The notes under the pieces were generated by a model. That model made no database searches and was not told the origin of the DNA. It saw nothing but the letters and a program-made list of their open reading frames with translations. Positions 4,551-44,855 of a stretch of 64,000 nucleotides of DNA are shown in pieces; position 1 is the stretch's first letter; each line of letters begins with the position of its first letter. Origin of the DNA: Cerasicoccus arenae. GTDB lineage: Bacteria > Verrucomicrobiota > Verrucomicrobiia > Opitutales > Cerasicoccaceae. Made by a program: the position numbers and the translations under genes. The DNA lies in NCBI RefSeq assembly GCF_014651635.1, contig NZ_BMXG01000010.1:1-64000 (forward strand), given 5' to 3'.

Positions 4551-4578
4551 AAACCCCGGTTAGGAGAGCCGGGGTTTC
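4551..4578 (+). terminator. rho-independent terminator of the EF-hand gene, overlapping attL
   Basis: Stem AAACCCCGG (4551-4559) pairs perfectly with CCGGGGTTT (4569-4577), with a 9-base loop TTAGGAGAG and a short T/C run after it. It stands 36 bases after the EF-hand stop. The loop, the right arm and part of the left arm lie inside the 29-bp attachment repeat, so integration leaves this copy working. The attR copy has lost the outer left arm. Confidence 0.85.
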
Positions 4579-4584
4579 TTCGTG
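4556..4584 (+). repeat. attL, 29-bp direct repeat at the left prophage end
   Basis: The 29 bases starting CCGGTTAGGAGAGCC and ending TTTCTTCGTG occur again, without mismatch, at 44827-44855. The integrase gene starts 120 bases inside. The two copies bracket every phage gene and exclude all housekeeping genes, as expected for attL and attR cores. Confidence 0.92.
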
Positions 4585-4704: not shown

Positions 4705-5952
4705 GTGCTTTTGGACACAAATTCGGACAACTTTTTTCTCGTGAGTAGATCAAAAGTATCACTTTCAATAAAACCAGTCAGCGGAAAGAACAAGTCGGCT
4801 TTTCTTGTAACTGGACGCTGTCATGATGCCGATGCTCAAAAGCGATTTGGTTTCAAAACGGATAAGGTCCGGGTTCGGAAAAACAGCGAATCCGAGGCGA
4901 TGCAGCTCATTGCTGAAATCGAAAACTTCGTCCTTGCCCGTGAGGTCCGATCACGGTTGCGCTCGACGAGTCTCGATGAGGCGCAACTGCGTGATGCGGA
5001 AGTTGCCCTTCAGTTATTGCCCAAGGGGATTAGTCTCACTCAAATTGCGCGAAAGTTCGTGGTCTCTGATCGGGGTGATTTCGATGAGGATCCCATTAAC
5101 AAATGGATCGATGCCTTTCGCACTGAAAAAGAAGAAATTGAACAGCGTCGCCCTAAAACCGTGAGCAATTTGCTATGGCGCATTAATCAGTTCATCAACT
5201 ATTCTAACGTTGAAACCTTGGGTGATTTTTCCCGCGAATCAGCCGCTCGATTTTTAACCCGAAGTCATGCAAAAACCGGAAAAAAGCTTAGTGCTCAGAC
5301 GATGCAAAATGATTGGCTCGCACTACATTCTTTCGGTGGATATTTAGTTAAGGTCAAAGCAGTTGCCAATAATCCGCTGCAAGAGATTGGCCGAGCTCAG
5401 GTTGAGTGGAAACCGCCCGCGATTCACAATGCCAGCGAAGTCGCGGCCTTGCTCAAAGCTTCTCTTCAGGATGTATATAGCGCTGGGAAATATACCCCGT
5501 ATTTCGTTATTTGCTGCTTCTGTGGGGTGCGTCCGGAAGCCGAGGCTCCCTATCTACGGATGAAGGACGTCACTCTGGCCAAGAGTTTAAGCCTGTCTGA
5601 ATTGCGAGTCACTCGGCAAAAAGTGACGACTGCCAAGCAGCGATCGGTCCCGCTAAATGCAGCTGCCTGGCGCTGGCTTCAGTATTGCCAAAAACAAGAG
5701 TGGGAAATCGCGGTTCCAACGAAAAATGCCTATATCCGCATCCGTCTCGCCGCTGGCCTGCTTGGTTCCTGGTCGGGGGACATCATGCGTCACACCTACG
5801 CCACGATGACGCTCGCCAACGGCGCCAATAAGCGAGATCTCGCTGAGTGGATGGGGAATAGCCCGCGCCAAATTGAAAACAGCTACATGAACCTTGCGAA
5901 ATATGAAAAATCAGCCGCCAGGAAGTGGCTCAATATCAAGCCTCCGCAGTAA
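4705..5952 (+). CDS. int: tyrosine recombinase (phage integrase)
   Basis: Site-specific recombinase that would integrate and excise the element at the 29-bp repeats. 415 residues, with a SAM-like core-binding region (about 125-220) and a C-terminal catalytic domain. Visible catalytic residues: Arg276 in FCGVRPEAEAP, a Lys in the beta hairpin near RQKVTTAKQRSV, Arg362-His363 in DIMRHTYAT, and nucleophile Tyr394 in NSYMNL. The usual box-II His is Asp359 and the usual His/Trp of LGHSS is Asn385 (WMGNS), variants also seen in other tyrosine recombinases. The start is GTG 4705 with GGAG nine bases upstream; an ATG at 4690 is in frame but hits a stop. It lies 120 bases from attL. Confidence 0.9.
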   Translation: MLLDTNSDNFFLVSRSKVSLSIKPVSGKNKSAFLVTGRCHDADAQKRFGFKTDKVRVRKNSESEAMQLIAEIENFVLAREVRSRLRSTSLDEAQLRDAEVALQLLPKGISLTQIARKFVVSDRGDFDEDPINKWIDAFRTEKEEIEQRRPKTVSNLLWRINQFINYSNVETLGDFSRESAARFLTRSHAKTGKKLSAQTMQNDWLALHSFGGYLVKVKAVANNPLQEIGRAQVEWKPPAIHNASEVAALLKASLQDVYSAGKYTPYFVICCFCGVRPEAEAPYLRMKDVTLAKSLSLSELRVTRQKVTTAKQRSVPLNAAAWRWLQYCQKQEWEIAVPTKNAYIRIRLAAGLLGSWSGDIMRHTYATMTLANGANKRDLAEWMGNSPRQIENSYMNLAKYEKSAARKWLNIKPPQ

Positions 5953-7053: not shown

Positions 7054-8496
7054 GTGATGAGTTCGTTAGTCCGTAACTGGCTTGCTCAATGCAAAGCGTT
7101 TTTCACTTGTAGTAATATCTCGTCCTGCAAATCATATGCCATGGAAGCAGCCCAGTCTCTTTTAAGCTCAATTGAGGATCCACTTTCAGGGCTTAATCCC
7201 AAGATTCCTTTTCATGATGATGTAAGTAAGGATACGAAGGGTGATCGACTCCATTTAGCCAATTTTTTAAAGGGGTATTTTCATAATGAGAATGAGCCGT
7301 CTGTCATCGCCCTTGAGGGCACTTGGGGATCAGGGAAATCTTGGTTTTTGGAACGGTTCAATTACTTCGGTAATTTGCCAGAGGAATCGGTAAACACCGT
7401 TATTCTTCGAGCATGGAACCATGACTTCTGCACCGAACCATTTGAGCCCCTTTTCAGCGAGATCTATAATACCCTAAAGGATAAAGAAACCCACTTGGAA
7501 AATTTCCAAAGAGAAGGTGGGGCAATACTTGAATACCTGCTGTTTAAAGCGATCGAAATCAAAACGCTGGGTATTCTGAAATTCGATGAGATTCGCAAGA
7601 AAGCGAATGATACAGTACCACTAGCTAAGAAAATTGCCTCGGATCACCAAGCTTACATTGATGCGGTTAAGAATTTCAAGTTAGCCTTAAAATCTGTCGT
7701 TGATGAAACGGGTAACCATCTGGTGATCATTGTCGATGAACTGGATCGCTGTGAGCCACACTTTGCGCTAACGATGCTTGAGAGAATAAAGCACCTCTTC
7801 GGTATTCCAGGTGTCCACTTCTTGATCGGAGTCGCTACTGAAAGCTTGGCTAGCCTCATTAGCGGTAGATACGGTCCAGATGTGGATACGGATGAATATT
7901 TAGATAAATTTATTACGCACCGAGTTGAACTGTATCCTATATCTCAGAGGCGCTTTACCGCGAAAGATACATTCTTGGGAAATCTGACGAAAAAAATTAA
8001 TAAGCAGATTGGTGACATTTCAGAGGAGCTGAATATTACTCCGCGAAGGATTCAGCGTCTTTTACATGCTATGCAGCTATGTTTCCGTAGTGGTTACTTT
8101 TATCCTGATGATGAACTGGTGCCGATCATGTATCTTCTTCTCTATACGAAGATGCGAAGTCCGCAGTTATACGAGCGAGTTCAAGTAACAAGGAAGAAAG
8201 TTCAAATTCACCCAAAGCATACTATTGAGCTTCTGTTATTTCTTATTTTGAAAGGGCTGAGCACCGAGTCTCAAAATGCCTATTTCCCAAAGATCCTAAA
8301 CTGCTTTCAGTCGTCTTGCAATTCCAGCTCAGTTATTAATTCTCTTAATGAATCCGAGTATCATGATTACATAGGGTACTTCAGCGGTAAGGTTGCAGTT
8401 TGGGATGGTGGCCGTAGTATTTCAGATCATAAAGTTAGCCACCCAGATGTGTTGCGCATGTTTGAAGTTATGCGGCACGCAAATCTTAAGCTGTGA
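7054..8496 (+). CDS. KAP-family P-loop NTPase
   Basis: 480 residues from GTG 7054 (ATG 7057 is equally possible). Walker A is EGTWGSGKSWFL (about 88-99) and Walker B is HLVIIVDELDRCEP (about 222-236), with the Asp-Glu-Leu-Asp-Arg-Cys signature typical of KAP ATPases. A helical insert lies between them (FQREGGAILEYLLFK). The sensor region TPRRIQRLLHAMQL follows, then an all-helical C-terminal domain. Many KAP proteins are membrane-associated and several sit in defence islands; here the insert is only mildly hydrophobic. AT-rich relative to the surrounding phage genes and preceded by a small partner gene. A defensive or exclusion role is inference from family and position. Confidence 0.85.
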   Translation: MMSSLVRNWLAQCKAFFTCSNISSCKSYAMEAAQSLLSSIEDPLSGLNPKIPFHDDVSKDTKGDRLHLANFLKGYFHNENEPSVIALEGTWGSGKSWFLERFNYFGNLPEESVNTVILRAWNHDFCTEPFEPLFSEIYNTLKDKETHLENFQREGGAILEYLLFKAIEIKTLGILKFDEIRKKANDTVPLAKKIASDHQAYIDAVKNFKLALKSVVDETGNHLVIIVDELDRCEPHFALTMLERIKHLFGIPGVHFLIGVATESLASLISGRYGPDVDTDEYLDKFITHRVELYPISQRRFTAKDTFLGNLTKKINKQIGDISEELNITPRRIQRLLHAMQLCFRSGYFYPDDELVPIMYLLLYTKMRSPQLYERVQVTRKKVQIHPKHTIELLLFLILKGLSTESQNAYFPKILNCFQSSCNSSSVINSLNESEYHDYIGYFSGKVAVWDGGRSISDHKVSHPDVLRMFEVMRHANLKL

Positions 8497-9438: not shown

Positions 9439-9698
9439 AAGATACGATCGAACGAACCACCATCTCCCTCGAAGGCCCGCTTTATGCCGCCGCCAAGGGT
9501 TACGGTCGCCAACGCAACTTGAAGTTCTCTCAAGTCGTTGCGGAAGCTCTGGAAGTTCGCCTTCGCGCCGAGGGTTACTTGCCCAATAGCCAGGAGGAGT
9601 CGAACGATCTCACCCTTTGCCGTGAGCTTCGCCAACAGGGGATCGATCCGCAGCCCGCGCTCACCCAACTCATGGAAGAAAGGATCCTGTCCGCATGA
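9435..9698 (+). CDS. ribbon-helix-helix regulator, Cro-like position
   Basis: 87 residues from ATG 9435 (MQDTIERTTISLEGPLYAAA). RHH fold: strand ERTTISLEG, helix YAAAKGYGRQRNLKFSQVVAEALEVRLRAEG. The C-terminal part (LCRELRQQGIDPQPALTQLMEER) is helical. It is a paralogue of the divergent repressor candidate at 8912-9358 but lacks that protein's long charged tail. It opens the rightward early operon and its stop overlaps the next start by four bases (ATGA). The position matches a Cro-type gene of a lambdoid switch; both the upstream operator copies and the shared strand sequence suggest that the two proteins compete for the same DNA. Confidence 0.75.
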   Translation: MQDTIERTTISLEGPLYAAAKGYGRQRNLKFSQVVAEALEVRLRAEGYLPNSQEESNDLTLCRELRQQGIDPQPALTQLMEERILSA

Positions 9699-10078
9699 GC
9701 GCCCCTCAACAGATTGAGCTTTGGTCGCAGCCGGAAACCGCGCTTGCCAAGTTTGAGGCGCGCTTGCGGGAAATTCGTCAACCGGGGCTCATGCTGTGGA
9801 CTGGTGTTCTGCGCCGGATCGTTGCTCGGATCCTCGAGCGCCGTGAATCCGTATATACGCAGTGCATGCTCCTGGAGTCGGAGGTCGAGGCCGGTGCCGA
9901 TTCCATCGTCATTCTGGAGCGCATTGGTCGCATTAAGGGTCTCGTCGCCGCCATGTTGCTCGCGCTCTGTATCTATCAGTGCGTGGAGGGATCCGCGCTC
10001 ATGCGTCCCCGTGAAGCTCGCCCTGTCAAAACCGCCCGCGTCCGTAAAGGTCGCGAACTCGAGGATTACCTCGCCTAG
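9695..10078 (+). CDS. phage early hypothetical protein with a hydrophobic helix
   Basis: 127 residues. The start overlaps the RHH stop (ATGA), so translation is coupled. The N-terminal half is amphipathic (LWSQPETALAKFEARLREIRQPGLMLWTGVLRRIVARILERRES). One segment, IKGLVAAMLLALCIYQCVEG (about 88-107), is long and hydrophobic enough to cross the membrane, and the tail is basic (ARPVKTARVRKGRELEDYLA). No family recognised. It is the second gene of the rightward early operon. Confidence 0.65.
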   Translation: MSAPQQIELWSQPETALAKFEARLREIRQPGLMLWTGVLRRIVARILERRESVYTQCMLLESEVEAGADSIVILERIGRIKGLVAAMLLALCIYQCVEGSALMRPREARPVKTARVRKGRELEDYLA

Positions 10079-10104
10079 CCATGGAACCTCCCATTTCAGA
10101 TCGC

Positions 10105-10180
10105 AGTAGGGTAGAGCAGTCGGAAGCTCGCCAGGTTCATTCCCTGGAAGTCGCGGGTTCGAGTCCCGCCCCTGCGCCCA
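10105..10180 (+). tRNA. phage tRNA with CAT anticodon, initiator-like but atypical
   Basis: A 76-base cloverleaf can be drawn including an encoded CCA (10178-10180): acceptor AGTAGGG/CCCTGCG, D stem GAGC/GCTC with loop AGTCGGAA, anticodon stem CCAGG/CCTGG with loop TTCATTC (anticodon CAT), variable AAGTC, T stem GCGGG/CCCGC with loop TTCGAGT. Initiator-like features are A11:T24 and an unpaired 1:72 (A with G). Odd features are C73 rather than the A73 of methionine tRNAs, T37 where a purine is normal, and three extra upstream bases CGC that could instead pair as CGCAG/CTGCG. It may be an initiator tRNA copy with a 3-base insertion, a specialised tRNA, or a tRNA mimic. Confidence 0.7.
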
Positions 10181-10188
10181 ATTCCGCC

Positions 10189-10569
10189 ATGCTCACTGCG
10201 CTGTTGTCCGCTATGCAGCGCATGGGTGCCCGCCGTTTGCGGGGAACCTTCGATGCCGCCACGGGTGCGTTCGATGTGGAAGCCGTGCCCGCCGGTCCAC
10301 CGGAATTAGGGTGCAGTGCTGCCGAGCTCGCCGCGCTATTGGGTCATGGGGTCAGCCCGTTCCTCGTCAACGATTGGGCGAAGAAGCGCAAGCTCTCGTC
10401 AGTCAAAGAGGGGAAAACCCGCTTCTTTCTGCTGCCCGTGGTCGCGCACGATCTCGCGTATCAACTCGATCTCGCCGATGTCACCGCCGGTCGTCCGGAA
10501 GTCGAGCGCCTGCTCATCGATTGGGTGCTCCGCCGCGCCCCGATCACGCCCTCCTGGGAAGCCGCTTAA
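10189..10569 (+). CDS. phage early protein, possible DNA-binding
   Basis: 126 residues from ATG 10189; the longer open frame back to 10081 would run through the tRNA and is rejected. The middle has a helix-turn-helix-like run (CSAAELAALLGHGVSPFLVNDWAKKRKLSSVKEGKTRFFLLP) of the winged or MerR-type pattern seen in phage excisionase-like proteins: helix, turn, recognition helix, then two strands. The C-terminus is helical (RPEVERLLIDWVLRRAPITPS). Position just after the tRNA and switch genes suits an early DNA-binding protein; no specific function is claimed. Confidence 0.6.
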   Translation: MLTALLSAMQRMGARRLRGTFDAATGAFDVEAVPAGPPELGCSAAELAALLGHGVSPFLVNDWAKKRKLSSVKEGKTRFFLLPVVAHDLAYQLDLADVTAGRPEVERLLIDWVLRRAPITPSWEAA

Positions 10570-13100: not shown

Positions 13101-14003
13101 TTACGCCATTGCAAGAGTTTTAGCAGGAACAGATGTGCCCGCATCGAAGATTTTAATTCCCTGTCCCCCCATCTGCCGATGTGCTTCGTTGATCTTGCGG
13201 AGTATGCCCGCGACGTATTCCCGAGCATCTTCATCGCTTATGCCGTCAGGGATGTTGAAGCGAAGTTCGTGGGTGGGAGCTTTAGTTTCTTCCGGGTCGT
13301 TCAAAACATTCAGTTGGAACTTTTCTGCCCAGGGAAATTTAGATTTAGGTTTCTCTATTGTCATCCTGATAAGCTCGCTTTTGTAGAAGATAGCCCTGTG
13401 AAAAGTAGAACCGAGAGTAGCGGTATAATCAAAAGATATTATAGCCCGCCTAAAATCAGATTCATCAAATTGGCAATGGGAACAACTAGCATTTGTGAAA
13501 TCGGCAGAATTGAAATTTACGCCAGTACATTCAGTTTGATGCATCTCAACTCCCCGGAAACTGGTGCAATTCGCAGAGGCTTTCCGAAATGCGCCTTGGT
13601 CGATATCCGCCCCATCAAATCTAGCGCCGTAGAGATTGCTTTTTATGAACGTGGTTTCGCTCAAGGATGCGCAAATGAAACTGGCATTATCGAGTATTGC
13701 ACCCGTAAATCGCGTGCTGTGGAGCTTAGAATTATCAAAGTTGCTCCCAGCCAGGTAGGTTCTACTAAAATTTGCTCCAATTATAGTGACGTTAGTGAAA
13801 TTTGTGCCCGAAAGGTCGAGTCTGAGATCATCCCCGCCTCTTTCCAGAAAGTTGTGTTTCGCTTCGTTAAATTCACTAACATCGGTTTTCAGCAATTCGA
13901 CCCAGCCCTGTTTCTCAAAAGGAATATGCATAGTAGAGACAGTCGATATAGCGTAGATCACCATCAAGCAAGTATAGATATTTTTAGTGAAGCCTATGAA
14001 CAT
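13101..14003 (-). CDS. pentapeptide-repeat protein with N-terminal membrane segment
   Basis: 300 residues. An N-terminal hydrophobic stretch (IYTCLMVIYAISTVSTM) is followed by about 25 pentapeptide repeats of the A/C-[DN]-[LF]-x-x type between roughly residues 58 and 190: LRLDLSGTNFTNVTIIGANFSR, LAGSNFDNSKLHSTRFTGAIL, ADFTNASCSHCQFDESDFRRA. These form a right-handed quadrilateral beta helix. The C-terminal 80 residues are different (ELRFNIPDGISDEDAREYVAGILRKINEAHRQMGGQGIKI). First gene of a leftward AT-rich operon with 12574-13098. Known pentapeptide proteins mimic DNA or bind membrane partners; here the role is unknown, with cargo or exclusion functions as candidates. Confidence 0.8.
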   Translation of the reverse strand: MFIGFTKNIYTCLMVIYAISTVSTMHIPFEKQGWVELLKTDVSEFNEAKHNFLERGGDDLRLDLSGTNFTNVTIIGANFSRTYLAGSNFDNSKLHSTRFTGAILDNASFICASLSETTFIKSNLYGARFDGADIDQGAFRKASANCTSFRGVEMHQTECTGVNFNSADFTNASCSHCQFDESDFRRAIISFDYTATLGSTFHRAIFYKSELIRMTIEKPKSKFPWAEKFQLNVLNDPEETKAPTHELRFNIPDGISDEDAREYVAGILRKINEAHRQMGGQGIKIFDAGTSVPAKTLAMA

Positions 14004-20905: not shown

Positions 20906-21670
20906 ATGCCGTTGCCAAAGAAACCGATAGCCAAAAAGTTCCTCGCGAAGTACTGGGACTGCTCCGCTGCGAATCTATCGAAGGGCAAATACAAGAACAT
21001 GCCGAAGTTCATGACCTTCGACGAGGCCGATGTATGGAAGTACGACAACATCACGAACTCGCCCGCTCGCCAGGCAGCTGCTAAAGAGTCCGCTGCTCTA
21101 CGGTTTGGCAATGGGCCGGGAGAGATTCCGCATCCGTCAGGAGATCGCCCGATCGTCCATCAGTCGAAATTCGACACGGGGCAAAACGTCGCGGTATTGT
21201 TGCAACGGCTTCAATCGGACAGCGAACGGGAACCTCGGGATGGCTGGGACTTTGACGAGAGAATGCTGGTGCAAGCGGAGGGTGTTGTTGAGCTAGCCTA
21301 TGCGTTGTACCAAGATGCGATTCGCAAAGGGAACCCAGCTCATGTTGCCATGCAGTTGAAGAACTGGAGCGAAGCCTCCAAACAAGCCGCCGCGATCCGT
21401 GCATCATTTCTTGATTTGGTGACTCGCCGGGGTGGTATCGCTGAAATTGACGGTGTGATTGATATTGTCAGCGGTGTATTGGGCGATTTGCGAAGTCGTC
21501 TGGACAAGCTAGGAGATCGGTGTGCAATTGAAGCGAATCCAAGTGATCCTGTTCTGGCTAAGAACGTGATCGATTTAGCGATTAACGCGATTTTTGAAGA
21601 ATTTGACCGGGCGCAAGAACGAATCGAGGAAGACCTGCGCCAATGTCCCGATCTAAGTCAAGTAGCGTAG
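20906..21670 (+). CDS. terminase small subunit (putative)
   Basis: 254 residues. The N-terminal basic segment (KKPIAKKFLAKYWDCSAANLSKGKYKNMPKFMTFDEADVWKYDN) reads like a DNA-binding helix-turn-helix of Nu1 type, where the first domain selects a site by its second helix. The rest is helical (VAVLLQRLQSDSER, MLVQAEGVVELAYALYQDAIRKG), suiting oligomerisation. It sits directly before and overlaps by 28 bases the large subunit, the usual order. Assignment rests mainly on position and fold pattern. Confidence 0.7.
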   Translation: MPLPKKPIAKKFLAKYWDCSAANLSKGKYKNMPKFMTFDEADVWKYDNITNSPARQAAAKESAALRFGNGPGEIPHPSGDRPIVHQSKFDTGQNVAVLLQRLQSDSEREPRDGWDFDERMLVQAEGVVELAYALYQDAIRKGNPAHVAMQLKNWSEASKQAAAIRASFLDLVTRRGGIAEIDGVIDIVSGVLGDLRSRLDKLGDRCAIEANPSDPVLAKNVIDLAINAIFEEFDRAQERIEEDLRQCPDLSQVA

Positions 21671-23520
21671 TCACGCCAGCATCGCGCAAGCGCGTTCGTG
21701 GATTCTGTCGCTCGATTTTTAAACCGCGTGATCGCCTCACCCCTTCGGAGTGGTGTAGTCGCTTGGTGCTGCCGCCTGCTCAGAATGAGTCTGAGCCGGG
21801 TCCCGTCCGCTGGGAAACACGTCCTTATTTGCGCCAACCTCTGGACTCGCTCGAGGAGCCCGGGATTACCGATGTCATTTTTGTCGCGCCTACGCGTTCG
21901 GGTAAAACCTTCCTGCTGCGAATGGGCATGTCTTGCTCGATCGCCAAGGATCCCGCCCCGGCGCTGTTTGTCGATTCAACAATGGATAAGGGCAGGGGGT
22001 TTATTCGCAAGGAATTCAAACCTCTGGTCGAATACAACCGCATCCTGCGTGATCAAAAGCCGCTCAATCGTCACTACTTTGCTGATGGAATGATGCTTTT
22101 TCCCGGTGCTGCTCTCACGGTTTTTGGAGCAAATTCCGATGCCCAGGTATCTGGCGAAACAGTCAAACGCATTTTCGGGAATGAGGTCGATAAATGGCGT
22201 GGTTCCACCGATCAGGAAGCTTCAATCCTCGATCAAACTCGGCACAGAACTGAGTCTTTTGAAGATGAACGGATCCATTACTATTCGAGCACGCCAACCC
22301 TCGAAAGCGGACTGATTTGGCAAGAATTCCTAAAAGGTGATCAACGCAAGTGGTTCGTTCCTTGTCCCTGTTGCGGTCACATGCAGGATTTAGTTTGGCC
22401 GCAAGTGGATTGGGCCTGGCACCCAGAAACTCGCAATGAAGATGGATCCTGGGATATGGAAAAGGTGCGCGAGTTGGTCCGCTATCGTTGCCGCAATTCT
22501 GATTGTAAAGGTGAGCCATGGACTCAGGAACAACTTTGGGCAGCCGTAAGGGATCCCCGTTCCGATTGGATCGCCACTGCGGTCGGGCGATTCGGTCATC
22601 GCTCCTATCATATCAACGGTCTGTATGGTCCGCTGAAGGTAAACACCATGGCCGCGCTGGCCTCTGATTTCATCTATGCGCGCAAGACTGCTTTTTTCAC
22701 GGATCGTCAGGATTTCTGGAACGGTCGCATGGGGATGCCTTGGGTCGATGATGTCAATTCGCTGTCGGCCTCGAAGTTCGCTGATTTTGAAGGTGATTAC
22801 TTGCGGGGCACTTTACCTGAAAGCGTTGGCAAAGCAGATCTCATCATCGTTGGGTTCGATGTGCAAACCTATGGGTTGCCGTTCCTGGTTCTTGGGTTCA
22901 CCTGGGATGGGCATTGCTACACTATCGATCACGGTCTTGCCGCAACATTCAGCGACTTAGATGAAGTGCAGGGTGATTACGCGCACCTGGGAAAACTCTC
23001 CTACGTGATTGGCGACATAAACTTTGAAGATCGCGCCGCCGAAACCCGTGAAGCCATATACTTGCGCCGTGAACGTGGATGGATGGCCGCCGAGGGTTTC
23101 GAGGTCATGCGCGAGCCAGTCAAGTTTGAGCGCGCCAATGCTTTCATTGGTGGTCGCCACCAAAAGCGGGGAGCCCGGTTCCCCAAGCTCATGATCTCGC
23201 TCTACATGTTCAAAATTGAGCTGGAGAAACGACTCGCCGGAGAAATTCGTAAATGGAGCACCTATGGTCTTTCGCTCGTTGCCAGTGACTCGGAAGTGAA
23301 GGAGCAAGCCGAATATTACGCGCAGCTGCTCGATGAACGTCGCGTTCCCCGTAAACGGAAGCTCATGGGTAAGCCGCCATTCGAGTTTAAATCTCGTAAC
23401 GGTAATAATCACTTTTGGGACTGCTATGTTTATGCGCTGGGTCTGTTCTATTTCCTTTCGCGCAGTAAATCTGCCAAGAAAAAGGGAAAGCGTAGCACTG
23501 CCACGGTCGAGCAAAAGTGA
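21643..23520 (+). CDS. terminase large subunit, GpA family
   Basis: 625 residues; DNA-packaging ATPase and nuclease of lambda GpA type. Walker A is FVAPTRSGKTFLL (about 81-92). The Walker-B-like region is KRIFGNEVDKW. A zinc-knuckle pair follows (CPCCGHMQDLVW and CRNSDCKG), typical of GpA proteins. The nuclease part shows LIIVGFDVQTYGLPFLVLGF and VIGDINFEDR with acidic residues, and HFWDCYVYALGLFYFL near the end. The basic tail (SKSAKKKGKRSTATVEQK) is common. GpA relatives usually cut cohesive ends, which would make this a cos phage, but the site was not identified. Confidence 0.93.
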   Translation: MSRSKSSSVVTPASRKRVRGFCRSIFKPRDRLTPSEWCSRLVLPPAQNESEPGPVRWETRPYLRQPLDSLEEPGITDVIFVAPTRSGKTFLLRMGMSCSIAKDPAPALFVDSTMDKGRGFIRKEFKPLVEYNRILRDQKPLNRHYFADGMMLFPGAALTVFGANSDAQVSGETVKRIFGNEVDKWRGSTDQEASILDQTRHRTESFEDERIHYYSSTPTLESGLIWQEFLKGDQRKWFVPCPCCGHMQDLVWPQVDWAWHPETRNEDGSWDMEKVRELVRYRCRNSDCKGEPWTQEQLWAAVRDPRSDWIATAVGRFGHRSYHINGLYGPLKVNTMAALASDFIYARKTAFFTDRQDFWNGRMGMPWVDDVNSLSASKFADFEGDYLRGTLPESVGKADLIIVGFDVQTYGLPFLVLGFTWDGHCYTIDHGLAATFSDLDEVQGDYAHLGKLSYVIGDINFEDRAAETREAIYLRRERGWMAAEGFEVMREPVKFERANAFIGGRHQKRGARFPKLMISLYMFKIELEKRLAGEIRKWSTYGLSLVASDSEVKEQAEYYAQLLDERRVPRKRKLMGKPPFEFKSRNGNNHFWDCYVYALGLFYFLSRSKSAKKKGKRSTATVEQK

Positions 23521-30234: not shown

Positions 30235-31302
30235 ATGCCGACTGATTGGGACAACACTGCACCGGGTTCGATAAGCGGCCCTTCGGCTTCGTGGGATAAC
30301 ACGGGGCCGGGGGCGGTTTCCGGCATCGCACCAGCGCATGAAAACACCGCGCCGCCTGCCATCGCTGGGCCAGCGCCATCGTTTAACAACACTGCGCCTG
30401 GTGACATCGAACCGAGTGACGCCTTTCCCTCTGCGAAGCAAAGCTTCACGCTGACAGGTGGGGGAGAAACCGCGATCAATGGCCTGTATGTTTACGCTGG
30501 CGCATCATTGAACGGGAAGCCCGCTTTCATGCAGTCCGGCCATGACCGGAACAGCTATGGCACGCCTAACGGCACGGTCTTTTTCTGGACTGAGTCCAAC
30601 TGGCGCTTGAATTGGGTGTCCAGTGGTGGAGGCAGTTCACACGAAAGCCTGACCACGGATGGCGGCGATCACCCAATCATCGATGCGACAATCAGCAATG
30701 GCGGCTCTGGCACATTGCCGGTTCCAGTCGGTGCGCTGGTTGCACCGTACTTGGATGTCAGCAGCACGCATGACAACACCGCACCGGGGGCATTGTCCGC
30801 ACCGTCACAGGGGCACGATAACACTGCGCCTGCAAGCTTGTCGGCACCGACGCAAGGCCACGATAACACGGCGCCCGTTAGCCTCACTGCACCAGCTCAG
30901 GGCCATGACAACACCGCACCGGGCAGTTTAACCGCACCCACCCAGAATCACGATAACACCGGTGCCGGAAGCATTACCGCGCCAACGCAAAACCATAGCA
31001 ACACAGGACCGGCCAGCCTCACCGCACCGACACAGGGGCATGCGAATGATGCGCCCGGCTCGCTTGCCTCGCCATCGCAAGGCCACAGCAATGCCGCACC
31101 GGGCAACCTCTCGACGGGTGCTGATTGGGATAACACGGCCAGCTTGCCGAATCCCGCTGCCGTCTCGCTCTGCCCGGTCGTTGATGAAAACGGCGAACGT
31201 ATTTACGGCAGTGATCAGACCGAGCCGATCCTCGATATTTGCCCGCTTCAAACTTCCCCCTTCTGGACATCCAACCCGCCCGGCGCCATCGCCGTCGCCT
31301 AA
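30235..31302 (+). CDS. tandem 15-residue-repeat tail-associated protein
   Basis: 355 residues. Residues 5-64 hold four degenerate copies and residues 179-297 eight more of a 15-residue unit such as HDNTAPASLSAPTQG (aromatic or His-[DE]-N-T-x-P at its start). A non-repeat central domain (about 65-178, LTGGGETAINGLYVYAGASLNGKPAFM...NGTVFFWTESNWRLNWVS) lies between. The final part (NPAAVSLCPVVDENGERIYG) differs again. The repeat is Asn/Thr/Ala/Pro-rich with no charge apart from Asp and His, so it may form an extended spring-like fibre. It sits straight after the tail tube and is likely a virion fibre or decoration protein. No family recognised. Confidence 0.7.
   Translation: MPTDWDNTAPGSISGPSASWDNTGPGAVSGIAPAHENTAPPAIAGPAPSFNNTAPGDIEPSDAFPSAKQSFTLTGGGETAINGLYVYAGASLNGKPAFMQSGHDRNSYGTPNGTVFFWTESNWRLNWVSSGGGSSHESLTTDGGDHPIIDATISNGGSGTLPVPVGALVAPYLDVSSTHDNTAPGALSAPSQGHDNTAPASLSAPTQGHDNTAPVSLTAPAQGHDNTAPGSLTAPTQNHDNTGAGSITAPTQNHSNTGPASLTAPTQGHANDAPGSLASPSQGHSNAAPGNLSTGADWDNTASLPNPAAVSLCPVVDENGERIYGSDQTEPILDICPLQTSPFWTSNPPGAIAVA
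30247..30426 (+). repeat. first block of 45-bp coding repeats (4 copies)
   Basis: Four tandem 45-bp units encode WDNTAPGSISGPSAS, WDNTGPGAVSGIAPA, HENTAPPAIAGPAPS and FNNTAPGDIEPSDAF. Units are related in protein more than in DNA, which shows age and selection on the protein. Confidence 0.75.
30769..31128 (+). repeat. second block of 45-bp coding repeats (8 copies)
   Basis: Eight tandem units of 45 bp starting with a His-Asp-Asn-Thr codon run, the last one shortened by a codon, followed by another WDNTA start. Copies differ at many third positions, so recombination-driven copy change is not recent. Confidence 0.8.
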
Positions 31303-44826: not shown

Positions 44827-44855
44827 CCGGTTAGGAGAGCCGGGGTTTCTTCGTG
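44827..44855 (+). repeat. attR, 29-bp direct repeat at the right prophage end
   Basis: Exact second copy of the 4556-4584 repeat. To its left is phage sequence (ATGTGG instead of the AAACCCC arm) and to its right host sequence. The hairpin of the host terminator is thus broken here, as expected of the phage-derived side. Confidence 0.92.

Follow-up and report, generated by a model that had tools for sequence, protein, structure and literature searches.

A tRNA gene inside a prophage

The window, by which we mean the whole 64,000-nucleotide stretch of the Cerasicoccus arenae contig analyzed here, contains a 40.3-kb prophage bounded by an exact 29-bp repeat at positions 4556-4584 (attL) and 44827-44855 (attR). 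The forward strand of the prophage encodes a tyrosine integrase (4705-5952; PHROG integrase, 1.2e-19, with the Pfam Phage_integrase match below the curated cut-off), a phage primase/helicase (14567-16762; PHROG DNA primase, 2e-51) and the large subunit of a GpA-type terminase (21643-23520; Pfam GpA_ATPase, 3.1e-43). ARAGORN finds a single tRNA gene in the window, a tRNA-Met(CAT) at 10105-10180 on the forward strand, 5.5 kb inside the prophage. It lies in a 110-base gap between the end, at 10078, of one open reading frame (9695-10078, +) and the ATG, at 10189, of the next (10189-10569, +), both without a family match. The product of the downstream frame has its best homologue, 41% identical, in a related prophage of another genome (G048). 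An alternative in-frame ATG at 10081 would carry translation across the tRNA, but even counted from the start at 10189, the alignment to the best of three homologues (from 386 other genomes of the phylum) begins no earlier than residue 11. A simple scan for promoters and terminators reveals none beyond chance. Since the att repeat lies elsewhere and the tRNA is internal to the prophage, the tRNA is neither at the attachment site nor a gene of the host.

Several other prophage genes have recognizable features. A KAP-family NTPase (7054-8496, +) matches the PADLOC candidate defence family PDC-S20 (2.7e-57). The product of 13101-14003, encoded on the opposite (-) strand, is pentapeptide-repeat-like by eye and has no PADLOC match, and a phage protein at 30235-31302 (+) carries a short motif around NTAP that, by eye, is repeated many times.

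The tRNA gene itself is matched by the Rfam tRNA family RF00005 over positions 10105-10177 (50 bits, E 1e-7, cut-off 29) and ranks 39th by score among the 42 RF00005 matches of the genome. The CCA end is encoded at 10178-10180 and is preceded by C73. Together, ARAGORN, Rfam and a reading of the sequence confirm the cloverleaf with a CAT anticodon and encoded CCA described in the first-pass annotation. The two features that it took for initiator hallmarks are also there: the D stem has A11:T24, and A1 faces G72, with which it forms no standard pair. According to the covariance model, all stem pairs are intact from 2:71 onward. The bottom of the anticodon stem consists of A29:T41, G30:C40 and G31:C39, and the anticodon loop at 10136-10142, corresponding to positions 32-38, reads TTCATTC (T32, T37, C38; anticodon at 10138-10140). 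Three bases, CGC, stand before the canonical 5' end at 10102-10104 and could be either the end of a leader or, after a three-base insertion, a stretch of the acceptor stem.

Initiator class of the prophage tRNA

To separate initiators from elongators we used a covariance model (R1) of 70 phage tRNAs, none of which has T37 and from which the prophage tRNA was excluded. The training set consists mostly of the listed matches from a scan of viral contigs, with a few sequences from phage records and genome contigs; the scan used a pattern of the D arm and the anticodon arm that left bases 37 and 38 free, and returned at least 120 matches. The prophage tRNA scores 81.4 bits and the host initiator 82.1, compared to 59.5 and 59.3 for the two other CAT tRNAs of the host and at most 66.7 bits for 15 host elongator loci, although the gap is flattered by the training pattern, which fixed several initiator bases. 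Judged by its sequence, the prophage tRNA is clearly of the initiator class.

A search of 54 genomes, comprising the host's own and those of its relatives, at E values up to 1e-16 shows that the C. arenae genome holds the prophage tRNA as a second initiator match; in two of the other genomes there are also two initiator matches each, identical in score and located on different contigs. The T32-type pattern with an eight-base D loop occurs in one of 387 genomes of the phylum, namely that of the host. The location within the prophage, the initiator-like score and a loop unlike the native one support the earlier proposal of a changed initiator tRNA borne by the phage.

Comparison with native initiators

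The host's own initiator lies on another contig (G000:C8:624-700, -; locus L038). For a wider native set we took the 30 loci listed out of 50 initiator matches in the 54-genome search. The anticodon loop is CTCATAA in all 30 listed natives and TTCATTC in the prophage tRNA. The pair A29:T41, which brings the G-C pairs in this part of the anticodon stem down to two, is likewise present in 30/30, and C73 in 28/30, the other two having T73 (25 of the C73 natives were tallied directly and three are genes that ARAGORN ended one base short). The textbook E. coli arrangement of three G-C pairs at 29-31:39-41 is absent from the prophage tRNA and also from these 30 natives. C73 and the two G-C pairs, both present in the host initiator, are therefore a habit of the host's bacterial group, as far as the listed sequences represent it.

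The first-pass annotation had presented C73, T37 and the two G-C pairs as three forbidden-looking bases. All of them are present, but the description does not hold: the first and last are normal among the natives of the host's relatives, and T37 recurs in phage initiator-like tRNAs (see below). Set beside the host's own tRNA-fMet gene, the prophage tRNA shares C73 and the two G-C pairs and differs in the loop.

More broadly, the prophage tRNA resembles the tRNA-fMet of the host and its relatives in A11:U24, A29:U41, G30:C40, G31:C39, the CAU anticodon and C73 followed by CCA. It differs in its loop (UUCAUUC instead of CUCAUAA), in a D loop of eight instead of nine bases and in the 1:72 position, where A1 opposes G72 instead of the prevailing U1-A72; no CGC precedes the natives. 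Among the listed natives the weak U1-A72 pair is found in 22/30, C1 with A72 in six and A1-U72 in two, so the prophage tRNA, with 1:72 unpaired, is even less closed at this position than the host initiator. The resemblance is unevenly distributed along the molecule. At bases 66-73 the prophage tRNA agrees with the host initiator in seven of eight positions, whereas no phage copy reaches more than six. Its anticodon arm matches the nearest of 124 listed phage copies in 17 of 18 positions, versus at most 13 for seven natives. On these sequence comparisons it resembles a phage-type initiator whose acceptor end is that of the host's group.

The altered anticodon loop in phages

The U32, U37, C38 loop is, by these comparisons, the true oddity of the prophage tRNA. 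T37 is found in 8 of 106 distinct phage initiator-like tRNAs among the matches listed from the pattern scan of viral contigs. Complete scans for T32 with C38 find T37 in 10/38 distinct sequences with an eight-base D loop and in 7/55 with a nine-base D loop. The recurrence of T37 with C38 weakens the idea of a random lesion of the loop. In a collection with one genome per species, the T32 type with an eight-base D loop occurs at 24 loci. Twelve genomes carrying a T32 phage-type copy were searched with the model, and 11 of them, several T32-type genomes being metagenome bins in which contamination is possible, also have an initiator with the CTCATAA loop; the twelfth (G457) has two further model matches that fall outside the reading pattern.

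Two peculiarities were seen among these sequences. Four phage initiator-like tRNAs (L094, L095, L161, L166) have extra bases of an ATAAAC type in or before the T arm. Bacteroides oleiciplenus (L250, L259, L269; genome of L224) holds initiator-type loops CTCATAA, ATCATAG and TTCATAC together.

A conserved locus in Mu-like phages

We compared the surroundings of 199 distinct full-length tRNAs at 248 loci, leaving out four tRNAs truncated by contig ends, one of which is a shortened copy of another; the tallies for the Mu-like locus are the same with or without them. A relative of one Mu-type prohead protease is encoded at 21 of the 28 T37 loci compared. The gene order at this Mu-like locus is divergent terminase genes, the tRNA, the prohead protease and then a head gene. 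All 20 distinct tRNAs within 700 bases of the Mu-type protease have T37 C38. Loci without relatives of three Mu-like proteins account for 175 tRNAs, of which 162 have A37, seven G37 and six T37, and at loci with distant Mu-like relatives (25-43% identical) T37 is found in none of four distinct tRNAs, the loop being TTCATAC; three of the four underlying scans fixed T32 and C38 and left base 37 free, and these shares do not represent population frequencies. Because the more distant Mu-like phages have A37 (4/4 distinct), U37 is not general even among Mu-like phages, to judge from the sequences compared. The T37 tRNAs at loci without the three Mu-like proteins (L118; L336 and L337; L137 and L176; L132) place the loop in several phage backgrounds. 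The members of the Mu-like family are found at L205:3728-7039, L210, L060, L062, L065, L092, L124, L128, L212 and L213, and further at L308, L309, L315, L318, L334, L369, L374, L379, L383 and L005.

Among the proteases of the locus, identity to the query protease goes down to 46%, which indicates that the tRNA has been kept there for long. In 14 aligned copies from the Mu locus, 1:72 is unpaired and every other pair is kept without exception. Eight pairs are changed on both sides, amounting to 44 cells against 14 in shuffles. These compensatory changes and the conserved locus make U37 compatible with a selected and presumably working initiator. The Mu-like tRNAs, from viral contigs and from Prevotella, Alistipes and other bins, resemble the prophage tRNA in the U37 C38 loop, and the 14 aligned copies also share the open 1:72 and the eight-base D loop. 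They differ in adjoining terminase and prohead protease genes, in having A73 and in mostly lacking an encoded CCA. No relative of the three Mu-like proteins compared is present in the studied prophage.

Related prophages and the 5' end of the tRNA

Neither the primase nor the terminase has close phage relatives in the viral contigs. Seven loci with relatives of the portal protein (39-61% identical) have no tRNA detectable by ARAGORN, these loci being possible fragments that mostly leave the early region uncovered, and four records of portal-relative loci, again possible fragments, have none either. ARAGORN also finds no initiator-like tRNA near related primases or the downstream protein in five regions of the genomes G006-G009 and G048. 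In the related prophage of G048, whose terminase is 51% identical to that of the studied prophage, a full model scan of 15.4 kb gives 9.4 bits at best. The first-pass annotation had named the lack of a conserved copy in related phages, together with the lack of a transcript, as evidence against its proposal, and the outcome for the first of these is divided: the related prophages, partly fragments, have no copy, but unrelated phages keep the tRNA type in a conserved place.

This absence keeps alive a rival reading, in which the gene is a decaying copy of a once-useful phage initiator that received a three-base insertion in the acceptor stem, changed its base 72 and no longer works. The older 5' end would then be C10102. 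The first-pass annotation had noted that CGCAG could pair with CTGCG in a shifted register, and this complementarity is real; the pairing would run around a three-base bulge and include a C1:G72 pair. ViennaRNA disfavours the bulged register (pair probability ~0.01, compared with ~0.99 for the 10105 register), and the covariance model likewise starts the tRNA at 10105. Leader sequences point the other way: AT, which precedes C10102, ends the leader in 74 of 124 phage initiator-like tRNAs among the matches listed, versus 5/124 for GC, the ending implied by a start at 10105. The insertion motif itself is found in none of the viral contigs. Folding thus favours CGC as a leader and the leader-ending statistic favours an insertion. 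In the lowest-energy precursor fold (ViennaRNA), two of the CGC bases pair with G72 and C73, and such pairing, as modelled, could hinder RNase P.

Several features speak against decay. The 10105 register keeps a complete stem 2-7 with an open 1:72, and the pairs that it implies, U3-G70 and A4-U69, occur in 9/70 and 10/70 phage initiators. Every other stem pair is intact, and the T37 C38 loop is of a recurrent type, unlike a random lesion. We consider decay a live but rather improbable account of the gene.

Proposed function of the prophage tRNA

Codon supply, the usual explanation of phage tRNAs, accounts poorly for an initiator, because one start tRNA serves all genes. The best explanation of the gene appears to be a supplementary phage initiator tRNA, to which we give roughly an even chance from its sequence. 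The tRNA would be transcribed along with the phage genes beside it, RNase P would release its 5' end at 10105, and methionine charging and formylation would follow; phage proteins could then be started with it when the host tRNA-fMet is scarce or damaged. According to two reviews, the determinants of formylation include the 1:72 mismatch, G2-C71 and the 11:24 pair (PMC9976931, PMC11231383), all of which the prophage tRNA has. Two minor determinants given in PMC9976931, C3-G70 and A73, are replaced by U3-G70 and C73; the natives also lack A73 and mostly have C73.

The loop differs from that of the host at the site of a known cut, with C38 for A38 and U37 for A37. Enteric VapC cleaves tRNA-fMet between A38 and C39 (PMC4105405), VapC1 of Bosea also cuts tRNA-fMet (PMC8522696), and loop-mutated phage tRNAs have been proposed as an escape from anticodon nucleases (PMC10264068). 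The U37/C38 loop may remove the A38/C39 site of VapC-type cutting and so let the phage copy survive an attack, a step less certain than the preceding ones. Avoidance of nucleases that cleave tRNA-fMet at A38/C39 leads the candidate reasons for the loop, though it is unproven; that the loop evades VapC-type cutting in particular is suggested by the altered bases, and we regard it as a tentative possibility. The van den Berg 2023 study (PMC10264068) presents a similar case in that the anticodon loop of the phage copy is altered relative to the host tRNA, but here the altered tRNA is an initiator and the nuclease is hypothetical. The same source states that phages generally avoid tRNA-fMet where VapC-LT2 is the nuclease, and phage Sf14 is reported in a later paper to have no tRNA-fMet (PMC12482277). 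Survival of an attack on tRNA, one of the purposes first suggested for the gene, fits published ideas best, but one search of the host genome, which is 97.6% complete, found no such attacking nuclease. Its single PIN-domain match, judged by eye, resembles a membrane PIN protein and does not look like VapC.

A more general form of this proposal is that several unrelated phage families carry a remodelled U32 U37 C38 initiator that would bypass a shut-off of translation initiation. We find this doubtful as a whole. The type would then be fixed at the Mu-like head-gene locus and separately present in the studied prophage, and this arrangement as a product of such a bypass seems equally doubtful. 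If true, an altered-loop initiator may sustain viral protein synthesis when the cell's starter tRNA is scarce or attacked. With phage initiators altered beside the VapC cut, counter-defence based on tRNA would become open to testing at translation initiation.

The loop could also belong to a working initiator in which U37 and the U32/C38 bases shift start-codon choice or the rate of initiation, with no role in escaping a nuclease. Bases 32, 37 and 38 reportedly influence decoding (PMC11231383), and one phage family has this loop fixed next to its late head genes, but the sequence singles out no target gene set, and we judge a shift in initiation unlikely. Still less credible is that the tRNA serves mainly as a mark for RNase P or 3' processing, or as a structural element that heads an operon, without a part in translation. 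It does lie directly 5' of an open reading frame here and 5' of protease and head genes in the Mu-like family, but the initiator features and the anticodon, needless for a mere mark, are kept in 14/14 aligned copies of the Mu locus. The chance that the gene is a remnant of an attachment-site tRNA, or was recently duplicated from the host initiator, is next to negligible: tRNA genes are common integration targets (PMC9897764), but the att repeat (4556 and 44827) is not the tRNA, which is internal, no second tRNA piece was found, elsewhere in its own genome the prophage tRNA matches only 26 bases of a tRNA-Asp, and the host initiator has a nine-base D loop and a different anticodon arm and loop, which rules out recent duplication.

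Known phage initiator tRNAs

Phage initiator tRNAs are already present in annotated records. A search of phage records returned 25 with similarity to the prophage tRNA, none spanning 80% of the query. Searches of the open-licence papers of PubMed Central gave no description of a phage initiator in which the anticodon loop is changed. The annotated tRNA-fMet of Stenotrophomonas phage vB_Sm_QDWS359 (ON331942.1) is likewise a phage-borne initiator type with T32; it differs in keeping A37 A38 and A73, and adjoins a terminase gene and a tRNA-Ile. ARAGORN also reports initiator-like tRNAs that are unannotated in the records of Pseudomonas phage PaMx74 (L003), Phage CBW1004C-Prop1 (L004) and Erythrobacter phage R6L (L007).
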